Shown one piece after another: positions 18,102 to 22,176 of a stretch of DNA of 64,000 nucleotides; position 1 is the first letter of the stretch; every line of letters starts with the position of its first letter. The DNA comes from Natrarchaeobius halalkaliphilus (GTDB lineage Archaea; Halobacteriota; Halobacteria; Halobacteriales; Natrialbaceae). Below the pieces are notes generated by a model. The model searched no databases and was not told the DNA's origin. It saw nothing but the letters and a program-made list of their open reading frames with translations. The stretch lies in contig NZ_REFY01000002.1 in NCBI RefSeq assembly GCF_003841485.1, positions 124,001 through 188,000 of the forward strand, in the 5' to 3' direction. The translations under genes were made by a program, and so were the position numbers.

Positions 18102-20420
18102 TCAGTTCTCCGACGAACCCGTCCGGTCGAACCGATCGCGGACCGCAAGCGCCGTCTTCGTTCCGTACCGGTCGACTAAGGGACGGAACGCCTCGCCCAG
18201 CGCACGCATACACTGTCCCCGTGACTGGTACCCGAGGCGGTCCGCGACGGCCGACGGGTCTCGCCCCTGGAGGGCGCGCAGGACGAGAAGCCGTTCTTCG
18301 CGGTCGCACAGTCGAATCTCGTCCGGATCGTCGAGAAAGTACCGTACTGCGAGTCGACGAAACGGGCGGGGAGCCACCTCGAACAGTCCCGGACCGTAGG
18401 CCGCGCCGGCGACGACGCGCCACTCGTAGTCGGTCAGATCGATCCCGGGAGTCACGTCGCCGCCGACGCTTCGCAACGCCTCGCGAGCCACGTCGGCCTC
18501 GAGGTCGGAAAGCGCATCGAGACACTGCGAGGGGACCCGTCGGACGAACTGCTCGGCGTGTCGATCGGACAGTTCCCGGCCGGCCTCGCTCGTCGGGGAG
18601 AGCATGAGTGCCGAGTACTCGCCACTGGCATCGTTTCTAGTCGTCGAGACGTGGACCGTCCGGTAGCCGTTCTCGCGCCAGAACGCGAGCAGCTCCGGCG
18701 TCGCGCCGAACCCGGTTCCGAGCCAGTCGATCGCATCGGCCGCGGTGAACTCCCGACGAATTCGCTCGAGTAACGTCGATCCCAGCCCCCGCGAGCGAAC
18801 GGCGTGGTGGGTCGCGATGCGAACGATTCGGACGCCGGCCGGCTCGCCAGCGTCCTCGTCCCGGAGCTGGCTCGCGAGCACGTCCGGAAGCATGTTCCCC
18901 CGAACCCGCCCGCCCTCGTACATCATCGCCCGCGTCTCACTCGAGAGGCGTCCCTCCCGAGCGAGCAAGGCGACGCTCACGACGTGGCCGTCCTGAACCA
19001 GCGCGCGCGTCTCGAGGTTGGGGGCGTCCAACAGCCGGGCCAGATCGTTCGGCTCGGTGCGGTAATGTGCGAGCACGAGCAGTCCGAACAGCTCCCGCAG
19101 GAGGCGTTCGTCCGCGAGCAGGTCGTCGGGCTCGAGACGGCGGTAGGTCACGGAGTCGGGCGTCGCCCCCGCGACGAGCGAGTCGACCGCGGGTCGCGCG
19201 TCGAGGAGCAGGGCACGAAACGCCCACACCTCGATCGGATCGCCTCCGGCGTACCGGATCGGCTCGGTGAGCGTGCAGTCGGTGACTGCGTGATCGCTTT
19301 CGGCCAGTCGATCCCGAAAGCGAACCGAAAACCCTCTGCCCGCCCCCTCGTAGCCGTGGATGGTGGTCGCGAACGCGACGGCGTCGGCCGAAAGCAGCGA
19401 CTCGAGCCGGGGGACGGGGAGCGCGGCCGCCTCGTCGACGATGACGATATCCGCCGTCTCGAGTTCCTCGATCGCCGCGGCCGCCTCGAGAAATCGAACA
19501 CACCCGCCGGCGGTCGTCTCGAGTCGCCGGTCGCGGTCGATCGTCGTCGCCTCGAGCGTCTCGCAGAGTTCTCGTGTCCGCTCGAACACCTCGCGGGCGT
19601 TTCGCCAGCCCGGCGCGGTGACGAGCACGTCCGCGCCGTCTGCGGCGAGCGCTCCCGCGGCCAGCCCCGCGGCGCTGGATTTGCCGCGGCCGCGGTCGGC
19701 CTCGAGCACGACCGCGCGTTTCCCCCCTTCGTCGTCGGCCGCCACGAGCGATTCGAACGCCCCGACGGCCTCGAGCTGGTCGCCACTCAAACAGGCGTCG
19801 GCAACGTCGAGCGGAAACCGCTCGAGCACCGGCCGCGCCCCGATCGCTTGCTCGGAGTCCGTCGGTCCGTTCGAATGGGTCGTCCAGCGCGGTGGCGGGT
19901 TCGTCACCCCCGTCGACCCGACCGTGCCCGCATCGACGTCGACGATGGCGATTCCACGGTGCTCCCGCAGGGTGTCGACGAGCCGGCCTCGAAAGCGGCC
20001 GGTGACGTCCGCGATCGAGAACGGCGGAACCGCAAGCGACTCGTCGAACTCGCCGTGATGGTCCGGCCAGTCCTCGAGCGCCGGCGTCAGGAGAACGAGG
20101 AGGCCGCCGCCGTCGACCGCGCCGACGACCGACCCGAGCGCGTTCGGGCGCAATCCCCCGTGAGCGTCGAGCGCTACCACCGTTCGCGTCGTTCCGAGAA
20201 GCTCACCCGCGTTCGCCTGTCGCCGGTGTTCACACCGGAGTCGGTCGTCGGGTCCGACGAGCGTCGTCGCCGTGATCCCGACCGGCAGCGCCTCGAGGAC
20301 GGCCTCGAGGGAATCGTAGCCACGGCTTCGATCGCCCGCGAGCACCAGCAGTCGGCGTTCGTCGTGCGCCGTCGCCTCCTCGAAGAGCGTCTCTGAGAGC
20401 GCAACGAGATCGGCGGTCAT
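18102..20420 (-). CDS. tmcA: tRNA(Met) cytidine acetyltransferase TmcA
   Basis: 772 residues. Enzyme of the TmcA/NAT10 family that uses acetyl-CoA and ATP to form N4-acetylcytidine in RNA. An N-terminal DUF1726-type domain is followed by a RecA-like helicase domain with Walker A EADRGRGKSSAAG and Walker B VDEAAALPVPRL. A GNAT acetyltransferase domain (RIATHHAVRSRGLGSTLLERI) and a C-terminal RNA-binding region come next. The ATG at 20420 (MTADLVALSETLFEEA) is chosen; upstream residues in frame are not family-like. Confidence 0.92.
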   Translation of the reverse strand: MTADLVALSETLFEEATAHDERRLLVLAGDRSRGYDSLEAVLEALPVGITATTLVGPDDRLRCEHRRQANAGELLGTTRTVVALDAHGGLRPNALGSVVGAVDGGGLLVLLTPALEDWPDHHGEFDESLAVPPFSIADVTGRFRGRLVDTLREHRGIAIVDVDAGTVGSTGVTNPPPRWTTHSNGPTDSEQAIGARPVLERFPLDVADACLSGDQLEAVGAFESLVAADDEGGKRAVVLEADRGRGKSSAAGLAAGALAADGADVLVTAPGWRNAREVFERTRELCETLEATTIDRDRRLETTAGGCVRFLEAAAAIEELETADIVIVDEAAALPVPRLESLLSADAVAFATTIHGYEGAGRGFSVRFRDRLAESDHAVTDCTLTEPIRYAGGDPIEVWAFRALLLDARPAVDSLVAGATPDSVTYRRLEPDDLLADERLLRELFGLLVLAHYRTEPNDLARLLDAPNLETRALVQDGHVVSVALLAREGRLSSETRAMMYEGGRVRGNMLPDVLASQLRDEDAGEPAGVRIVRIATHHAVRSRGLGSTLLERIRREFTAADAIDWLGTGFGATPELLAFWRENGYRTVHVSTTRNDASGEYSALMLSPTSEAGRELSDRHAEQFVRRVPSQCLDALSDLEADVAREALRSVGGDVTPGIDLTDYEWRVVAGAAYGPGLFEVAPRPFRRLAVRYFLDDPDEIRLCDREERLLVLRALQGRDPSAVADRLGYQSRGQCMRALGEAFRPLVDRYGTKTALAVRDRFDRTGSSEN

Positions 20421-20540
20421 ACGACATATCGGGTGACCCCGAAGTAATAGCTTGATCGTTGGACCCGGCTGTGTGCGGGCCGGCACGGATCGCCATCTCT
20501 CCGTGCGCCTCCATCCCACGGCCTCGTGCGTTTGAACACG

Positions 20541-20549
20541 CTTTTAAGG
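20541..20549 (+). promoter_or_regulatory. TATA-like box of the rpl7ae operon
   Basis: CTTTTAAGG is followed about 26 bases later by the start of the structured leader (near 20570). Confidence 0.5.
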
Positions 20550-20569: not shown

Positions 20570-20695
20570 TACACCCTACGCGGGGTTGATGATGCTCCTA
20601 GCCTCACAGGACTTCCGCCGACGCGTACTCGGCCCGGGACCCAGCCCGGACGGCAGGGGAGTGCGAGCCCGCGCGTAGGAGAAGGTGAACAACCA
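20570..20695 (+). promoter_or_regulatory. Structured leader of rpl7ae with kink-turn-like motif
   Basis: CCTACGCG (20575-20582) pairs perfectly with CGCGTAGG (20672-20679), and GGG (20683-20685 region) can add pairs with CCC (20668-20670). Just inside this stem the 5' strand has UUGAUGA (20586-20592), identical to a C-box core, and the 3' strand has GCGA before the CCC. Tandem G-A pairs are therefore possible, and an inner stem GCUCC/GGAGU follows. The 3' arm of the stem runs into the ribosome-binding region GGAG-AAGGTGA (20678-20688). L7Ae proteins bind exactly such kink-turns. Confidence 0.5.
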
Positions 20696-21058
20696 ATGTC
20701 AGTCTACGTAACAACCGATATCCCAGCCGACCTCGCAGACGATGCCCTCGAGGCGCTCGAGGTCGCTCGAGATACAGGACGAGTAAAGAAAGGAACGAAC
20801 GAAACCACGAAGGCGATCGAGCGCGGCAACGCCAATATCGTCTACGTCGCAGAGGACGTCTCGCCCGAGGAGATCGTCATGCATCTCCCGGAGCTCGCGG
20901 ACGAAAAGGGCATTCCCGTGGTCTTCATCGAGACCCAGGACGACGTCGGCCACGCCGCTGGCCTCGAGGTCGGCTCGGCCGCCGCGGCGATCGTCGACTC
21001 CGGAGAGGCGTCCGGTGACGTCGAGGACATCGCCGACAAGGTCGAGGACCTCGACTGA
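20696..21058 (+). CDS. rpl7ae: Ribosomal protein L7Ae
   Basis: 120 residues, the full family length. It has [32 protein letters not shown] and the [15 protein letters not shown] region typical of L7Ae. It binds kink-turns in 23S rRNA, box C/D and H/ACA guide RNAs and, in archaea, RNase P RNA. The ATG at 20696 has AGGTGA eight bases upstream. It is the first gene of rpl7ae-rps28e-rpl24e-ndk. Confidence 0.96.
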
Positions 21059-21069
21059 GGTGACCGAGA

Positions 21070-21294
21070 ATGAGTGCTGAAGAGGAAGAAAGCAGCTCCA
21101 CGCCCGCCGAGGTCATCGAGATCGTCGGCAAGACCGGCATGCACGGCGAAGCCATGCAGGTCAAATGCCGAATCAAGGAGGGCGAAAATCAGGGACGTAT
21201 CATCACCAGAAACTGCCTCGGACCGGTCCGCGAAGGGGACGTACTCCAGCTTCGCGAGACCGCTCGCGAGGCCGATTCCATCGGAGGACAATAG
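21070..21294 (+). CDS. rps28e: Ribosomal protein S28e
   Basis: 74 residues. [20 protein letters not shown] and the C-terminal [16 protein letters not shown] are the S28e signatures; the OB-fold protein sits near the mRNA exit of the small subunit. It begins 11 bases after rpl7ae, with GAGGTGA at the junction as ribosome-binding site. The N-terminus carries a short acidic/serine extension common in halophiles. Confidence 0.95.
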
Positions 21295-21298
21295 CACA

Positions 21299-21715
21299 AT
21301 GGTCGAGAAACGAACCTGTGACTACACCGGGGAAGACATCGAGCCCGGAACGGGCATCATGTACGTCCGTAACAACGGCACCGTGCTCCACTTCGTCGAC
21401 TCGAAGGCGGAGAAAAACTACAAGCTCGGACGCGAACCCCGCGATCTCGAGTGGACCGCGCAGGGACGCGCCAGCAAGGGTCCAACCGAGGTCGAGACGG
21501 AACCCGACGCGGACGAAAAAGAGGAAGACGCCGACGAGGACGAAGACCTCGAGGCAGACGACGAGCCAGCGGAGTCCGAGACGGCCGACGACGAGGACGA
21601 AGCAGTCGACTCCGACGTTGACGCCGACGACTCCGACGCTGACGCTGATGCTGATACCGAGAGCGACGAAGCAGTCGAACCCGACGCCGAAGACGAGGCT
21701 GAAGACGAACAATGA
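21299..21715 (+). CDS. rpl24e: Ribosomal protein L24e with long acidic C-terminal tail
   Basis: 138 residues. The first ~60 are a normal L24e zinc-ribbon-type domain (CDYTGEDIEPGTGIMYVRNN, then KLGREPRDLEWT). The remaining ~75 are almost only Asp, Glu, Ala and Ser, roughly doubling the usual length. The nucleotide sequence of the tail is built of GAC/GAG-rich near-repeats (for example GACGCTGACGCTGATGCTGA), so slippage expansion is plausible. It starts four bases after rps28e and overlaps ndk by four bases (ATGA). Confidence 0.93.
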   Translation: MVEKRTCDYTGEDIEPGTGIMYVRNNGTVLHFVDSKAEKNYKLGREPRDLEWTAQGRASKGPTEVETEPDADEKEEDADEDEDLEADDEPAESETADDEDEAVDSDVDADDSDADADADTESDEAVEPDAEDEAEDEQ

Positions 21716-22176
21716 GCGGGCACGAACGAACCTTCGTGATGGTGAAGCCGGACGCGTTCGCACGCGGGCTCGTGGGCGAAGTCGTCTCCCGACTCGAGGA
21801 ACGCGGCCTCAAACTCGTCGCAATCAAAGTCGAGAACATGCCTCGCGAACGCGCCGAGGAACACTACGGCGAACACGAGGACAAGCCGTTCTACGACGAC
21901 CTCGTCGAGTTCATCACCTCCGGACCCGTCGTTCCGATGGTCTGGGAGGGACAGGACGCGACTCGACAGGTCCGGCAGATGATCGGTGAAACGGACCCGC
22001 TCGAGGCCGAACCCGGAACGATCCGAGGTGACTACGCACTCGACCTCGGGCGAAACGTCGTCCACGCGGCCGACCACGAGGACGAGGGCGCGAACGAACG
22101 GGAAATAGGACTCCACTTCGACGACGACGAACTGGTCGACTACGACCAGCACGACACCGGCTGGCTCTACGAGTAA
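21712..22176 (+). CDS. ndk: Nucleoside diphosphate kinase
   Basis: 154 residues. It transfers the gamma phosphate between nucleoside triphosphates and diphosphates through a phospho-His. FVMVKPDAFARGLVGEV is the N-terminal signature and RNVVHAADH contains the active-site His near residue 118. Start and rpl24e stop overlap (ATGA), so it is coupled to the ribosomal genes, a common archaeal arrangement. Confidence 0.95.
   Translation: MSGHERTFVMVKPDAFARGLVGEVVSRLEERGLKLVAIKVENMPRERAEEHYGEHEDKPFYDDLVEFITSGPVVPMVWEGQDATRQVRQMIGETDPLEAEPGTIRGDYALDLGRNVVHAADHEDEGANEREIGLHFDDDELVDYDQHDTGWLYE

Follow-up and report, generated by a model that had tools for sequence, protein, structure and literature searches.

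Architecture of the leader

Does the l7ae gene of this haloarchaeon carry, in the leader of its own mRNA, a kink-turn (k-turn) through which the protein could limit its own synthesis? In the window, that is, the whole stretch of 64,000 nucleotides that was analysed, l7ae is the first gene of a cluster with rps28e, rpl24e and ndk. The feedback principle is already known in archaea: it was described by Daume et al. 2017 (PMC5539422) for the l7ae k-turn of Sulfolobus acidocaldarius and other archaea, with Haloferax volcanii included, and the leader of Archaeoglobus fulgidus has been studied by crystallography as well as by in-line probing (Huang et al. 2019, PMC6298567); together these studies report L7Ae binding, feedback and structure for the leaders of other archaea. 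The initial annotation of this DNA expected a haloarchaeal case to extend such autoregulation, which is only partly so, since H. volcanii was listed in 2017, but the architecture is new. What is new is an enlarged haloarchaeal form, with a C-stem of about 12 bp predicted to be pre-formed, a Shine-Dalgarno (SD) core outside it, a variable apical domain and a conserved AGG(G)A loop; to this are added compact hairpins from sister lineages and, for one family, an A·A variant. For H. volcanii the 5' k-turn strand was noted 'further upstream in the alignment' and the upstream fragment assayed was only ~50 bp (PMC5539422). In Haloferax leaders the b strand begins ~107-110 nt 5' of the ATG, and therefore the region assayed in 2017 cannot hold the 5' strand and cannot contain the element. 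The leader thus offers a precise, alignable candidate for the haloarchaeal version of this ribosomal-protein feedback loop, with the register of its motif corrected. Its parts in the window are the following.

20542..20547, + strand: TATA-box-like element TTTTAA of the l7ae promoter, 28 nt 5' of 20570
20570..20695, + strand: l7ae 5' leader, 126 nt, conserved in haloarchaea from UACA on; covariance model match in its own genome at E=3.9e-36
20575..20585, + strand: 5' arm of P1 (the C-stem), CCUACGCG GGG, pairing with 20668-20679
20586..20592, + strand: k-turn b strand UUGAUGA, with U20590, G20591 and A20592 invariant in 97/97 leaders
20594..20598, + strand: 5' arm of P2 (the NC-stem), GCUCC, pairing with GGAGU at 20658-20662; 5/5 pairs changed on both sides
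20601..20603, + strand: 5' arm of P3, GCC, pairing with GGC at 20652-20654; 99.3% of cells paired, 2/3 pairs compensated
20607..20611, + strand: apical purine motif CAGGA (AGGA/AGGGA), conserved in 91/97 leaders
20612..20651, + strand: variable apical domain, which accounts for most of the variation in leader length
20652..20662, + strand: 3' arms of P3 (20652-20654) and P2 (20658-20662), supported by covariation
20663..20667, + strand: k-turn n strand, with A1n in 97/97 leaders and 2n G in 89/97, A in 8
20668..20679, + strand: 3' arm of P1, CCC, bulged G20671 and CGCGUAGG, supported by covariation
20683..20688, + strand: Shine-Dalgarno AGGUGA, 3 nt past P1
20696..21058, + strand: l7ae (rpl7ae), ATG at 20696; Pfam Ribosomal_L7Ae, 1e-23
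21070..21294, + strand: rps28e; Pfam Ribosomal_S28e, 9e-30
21299..21715, + strand: rpl24e, with an acidic C-terminal tail; Pfam Ribosomal_L24e, 1.6e-20
21712..22176, + strand: ndk, its start overlapping the rpl24e stop; Pfam NDK, 7.6e-53

The leader (UACACCCUACGCGGGGUUGAUGAUGCUCC...GGGGAGUGCGAGCCCGCGCGUAGGAGAAGGUGAACAACCAAUG) is closed by P1, in which CCUACGCG (20575-20582) is perfectly complementary to CGCGUAGG (20672-20679) over 8 bp. The helix is extended by GGG (20583-20585) pairing with CCC (20668-20670), with G20671 bulged, and an internal loop, UUGAUGAU / GCGAG, separates it from P2. The perfect 8-bp stem, the UUGAUGA and the GCGA described in the initial annotation are all in place. 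Taken by itself, however, the window sequence raises this pattern only weakly above chance: the folding z-score of the leader is -2.05, and the + strand of the window holds 21 loosely similar arrangements of an 8-bp stem with TGA and GA (several of them overlapping). A comparison of the leader with Rfam models gave zero matches up to E=1.

Transcription very probably starts at about 20570 (20570-20574), upstream of the k-turn motif and not downstream of 20592, where a start would have deprived the mRNA of it. This position is predicted from the conserved spacing of the promoter, as the distance from the TATA-like TTTTA to the conserved UACA is 27-30 nt in 150/151 of the leaders having a TATA-like site. 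On the other side of the common intergenic region lies a divergent gene for a tRNA(Met) cytidine acetyltransferase of the TmcA/NAT10 type (18102-20519, minus strand), and downstream, within the cluster, the C terminus of L24e extends past its Pfam domain as a long tail rich in Asp and Glu (21500-21715).

Conservation of the fold

What the single sequence could only hint at was evident from comparison. All of the 80 haloarchaeal loci fetched with an L7Ae protein had a recognisable leader (80/80). When 34 of these and the window sequence were used to build a covariance model, it matched 369/391 Halobacteria genomes (~94%) in 80/86 genera. There is one match in nearly every matched genome, and all matches whose position was read lie directly 5' of rpl7ae. 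In a further set of 80 genomes, spanning divergent genera and including many that the model had missed genome-wide, an alignable leader was found 5' of l7ae in 77/80, with E-values of at most 1.8e-6 in 76 leaders and 1.2e-5 in one; the remaining three of these 80 (G021, G217 and G285) are without the common leader and have a compact hairpin in its place. Viral copies were also considered and rejected: an exact 15-mer occurs in 88 viral stretches, of which 80 were searched with the model and none scored above 18.7 bits, a level attributed to chance.

In 97 distinct leaders 95.8% of the cells pair (96.8% in P1 and 91.3% in P2), and compensatory changes on both sides were found in 16/20 of the proposed pairs, including 9/12 in the P1 helix. 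The covariation score was 0.353, compared with 0.155 for shuffles, none of which was as high, and at most 0.093 for slid controls. This alignment was fitted to the model and is biased towards the structure, but an independent MAFFT alignment of 35 leaders, with 11/20 pairs compensated, left the conclusion unchanged. A stem without compensatory changes had been named as an outcome that would speak against the reading, and the opposite was found. By comparison among sequences the leader is a conserved RNA structure, far beyond chance.

Leader length ranges from ~81 to ~209 nt in haloarchaea, mostly by the apical domain, and five leaders (L038, L113, L016, L019, L023) have much longer apical inserts, with a total of ~190-210 nt. 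Although the surrounding loop varies greatly, 91/97 leaders have AGGA or AGGGA no more than 16 nt from P3; a search by eye for a pseudoknot or other pairing partner of this apical AGG(G)A gave nothing convincing.

The same alignments bear on whether the conserved AUGAUGCUCCUAGCC might be an upstream ORF exerting leader-peptide control. The window leader does have two in-frame ATGs, but across species the candidates occupy every one of the three frames with respect to l7ae and have very variable lengths, many lack a stop before l7ae, and the ATG is absent in several genera. Frames, lengths and loss of the ATG already contradict this idea, which we rejected as having almost no chance of being right.

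Assignment of the tandem G·A pairs

UUGAUGA contains two GA dinucleotides, and either could be placed opposite the n strand. The first GA is often lost, its A being missing in 14/97 leaders, while the second is kept: U20590 (L3), G20591, A20592 and A20666 (A1n) are invariant in 97/97. The b strand varies among leaders as UUGAUGA, UUGUGA, UCGAUGA, UCGUGA and UCAUGA. As many species lack the first GA whereas U-G-A with the second is invariant, we assign the tandem pairs as G20591·A20666 and A20592·G20665, with a bulge U(GA)U whose L3 is U, and the first-GA (box C/D-like) register is ruled out. In this register, which is read from the alignment, U20586 is -1b, U-G-A-U 20587-20590 is the bulge (L3 = U20590), G20591 is 1b and A20592 is 2b; on the n strand G20663 is followed by C20664 (3n), G20665 (2n), A20666 (1n) and G20667 (-1n). 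The proposal that UUGAUGA and GCGA can form the tandem G-A pairs of a k-turn therefore stands as regards the pairs, which are conserved, but they involve the second GA and not the first. Loss of the GA elements in related species, thought to be damaging for the motif, is indeed seen for the first GA in many of them, while the second is retained in every one of the 97 leaders.

In these 97 leaders 1b:1n is GA throughout (97/97), 2b:2n is AG in 89 and AA in 8, and -1b:-1n is UG in 89, CG in 3 and UA in 3. The bulge has 4 nt in most leaders, including that of the window, and 3 nt in some, and most leaders have one additional n-strand nucleotide, two points that weigh somewhat against the feedback reading given below. 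The third pair, 3b:3n, is U·C in the window and in 62/97 leaders and Watson-Crick in only 5/97. Its non-canonical nature had been held to lower confidence in the motif; it is no weakness, as 92/97 leaders have a non-Watson-Crick combination here. Folding in ions alone is favoured when 3b is C or 3n is G, or when -1b:-1n is C:G (PMC6298567), and by these rules the k-turn of the window should need L7Ae in order to kink.

The eight leaders with A at 2n are all those sampled from one family, f2 (L134, L156, L168, L170, L175, L178, L187, L188), and on sequence grounds this is a clade-wide A·A variant of the second sheared pair. Their n strand reads GCAAG, or GAAAG in one leader. In having A at 2n they resemble Thelohania Kt-23, a rare type of k-turn with A·A at 2b·2n that is bound by L7Ae (PMC3985660); Kt-23, however, is a microsporidian ribosomal k-turn, while the f2 element belongs to an mRNA leader. 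The one f2 L7Ae that was read far enough has kept the TNE motif, which presumably includes the Asn and Glu that contact the G·A pairs in the A. fulgidus complex.

The register also decides about a box C/D sRNA lying in the leader, processed from the mRNA and guiding methylation. The likeness is real, because UGAUGA on one strand matches box C, as in the k-turn of archaeal box C/D sRNAs, and CUGA stands on the opposite strand in a few genera. Yet CUGA is rare, GCGA and UCGA are common and the n strand is mostly CGA; the tandem G·A pairs use the second GA, and the first, which the box C/D register requires, is unconserved; the interior ranges from short to more than 100 nt; no guide or D'/C' boxes were recognised, nor any Rfam match up to E=1; and the structure is attached to the ribosome-binding site of l7ae. 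On these grounds, and with the A of the first GA missing as counted above, this identity was rejected as highly improbable.

A proposed feedback model for L7Ae synthesis

A conserved k-turn 5' of l7ae, where the initial annotation had proposed a kink-turn-like leader, is strongly supported by covariation, by the invariant core, by its location and by compact homologues in sister lineages; the leader recurs in 369/391 Halobacteria genomes and its core in 97/97 leaders. Because the core is conserved and precedes l7ae itself, and because homologous leaders are published as L7Ae-binding feedback elements, we consider it likely that L7Ae binds the leader k-turn and represses its own translation, and we infer binding, repression and steric mode alike from sequence and analogy. 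The l7ae mRNA leader would fold into a long P1, the k-turn internal loop, a P2/P3 stem and the variable apical domain. When L7Ae exceeds the number of its sites in rRNA, sRNA and RNase P, it would bind the k-turn and lock it in the kinked form, and the kinked complex would hinder ribosome loading at the SD directly after P1. Synthesis of L7Ae would thereby be limited and, by translational coupling, possibly also that of S28e, L24e and NDK, effects that the close gene spacing makes possible.

Like the l7ae element of Daume et al. (PMC5539422), this k-turn lies in the leader of the same gene and adjoins the ribosome-binding site. With the A. fulgidus leader (PMC6298567) it has in common GAU before the tandem pairs, G·A followed by A·G, a non-standard 3b:3n and a place beside the SD. 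The A. fulgidus stem-loop is unstructured without L7Ae, its stem being short, protein-dependent and inclusive of the SD (PMC6298567); lack of structure without the protein is not clearly a hallmark of such autoregulatory leaders. Unlike it, the haloarchaeal C-stem has about 12 bp, does not take in the SD core and is predicted not to need L7Ae: without protein, the predicted pairing probability of P1 is 0.99 in the window, with a median of 0.98 over the 97 leaders and ~0.5 in Haloferax-like leaders. From its 3' end to the AUG there are 9-18 nt, mostly 11-15, in the 97 leaders; in many species the final AGG of P1 belongs to the extended SD. The SD adjoins P1 in the window, and a few genera have an unclear SD or none. 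The 3' arm thus does border the ribosome-binding site, as had been noted, with the SD 3 nt past P1, but shut-off simply by formation of the stem is doubtful, because P1 is predicted to be pre-formed and the SD core lies just outside. For the same reasons the published unfolded-to-folded switch is not directly transferable, and occlusion of the SD cannot be general, since two genera (g51 and g64) have no clear SD. We favour steric hindrance, or clamping of P1 beside the SD, as the probable mode. More tentatively, and rather against the odds, L7Ae might act on the pre-folded leader as a tertiary-structure switch, the kink swinging the P2/P3 arm and its conserved AGG(G)A loop back along P1 towards the ribosome-binding site; if true, the mechanism would differ from the folding switch of other archaea.

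The predicted stability of P1 also suits an explanation without regulation, in which a stable leader protects the 5' end of the mRNA or sets constant translation and L7Ae binding has no regulatory effect; the predicted transcript start, only ~5 nt 5' of P1, fits this as well. For protection, however, a k-turn would be superfluous, yet no part is more conserved than the k-turn core, which matches the motif of L7Ae in front of L7Ae's own gene. We regard this explanation as improbable and prefer repression by L7Ae as the likely one.

Lineages with other leader forms

Many l7ae leaders from other families of this phylum have a compact hairpin, for example AGUGAUGAAGGAG...CUCCUGAAUGAGGUG, in which the b and n strands are as in haloarchaea, the C-stem has ~2 bp and the SD follows immediately 3'. 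Of the other-family leaders read, a simple scan picked out about half, and the same strands were seen by eye in several more. Among haloarchaea themselves, families f5 and f11 have compact forms such as CGUGAUGAAGCGC...GCGCUGAACGAGGUG, with a C-stem of 2-3 bp. Compared with these, the common haloarchaeal form is one in which the C-stem is lengthened to ~12 bp and a variable apical domain added, which suggests that in one archaeal order a compact hairpin grew larger around an unchanged k-turn core.

These relatives bear on a further reading, in which regulation depends mainly on a ligand or k-turn binder other than L7Ae; its action would go through the conserved apical AGG(G)A, with the k-turn there to help the RNA fold, like that of the SAM-I riboswitch. 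The conservation of the apical motif in 91/97 leaders, with no partner found for it by inspection, would agree with this. The compact relatives, however, are without an apical domain, and the position 5' of l7ae and the homology to compact leaders of the L7Ae-bound kind point to L7Ae itself, so that we judge another main regulator very unlikely.

Two genera have diverged leaders (L179, L180, L183, L145 and L154, from g51 and g64), for example GGGGUCGUGACCC / GUCGAGCC, which the model missed genome-wide; these are the leaders with no clear Shine-Dalgarno 5' of l7ae. The compact leaders L190, L191 and L192 (f5, f11) belong to small-genome haloarchaea, and in them the k-turn hairpin abuts the SD, as it does in the non-halophilic relatives.
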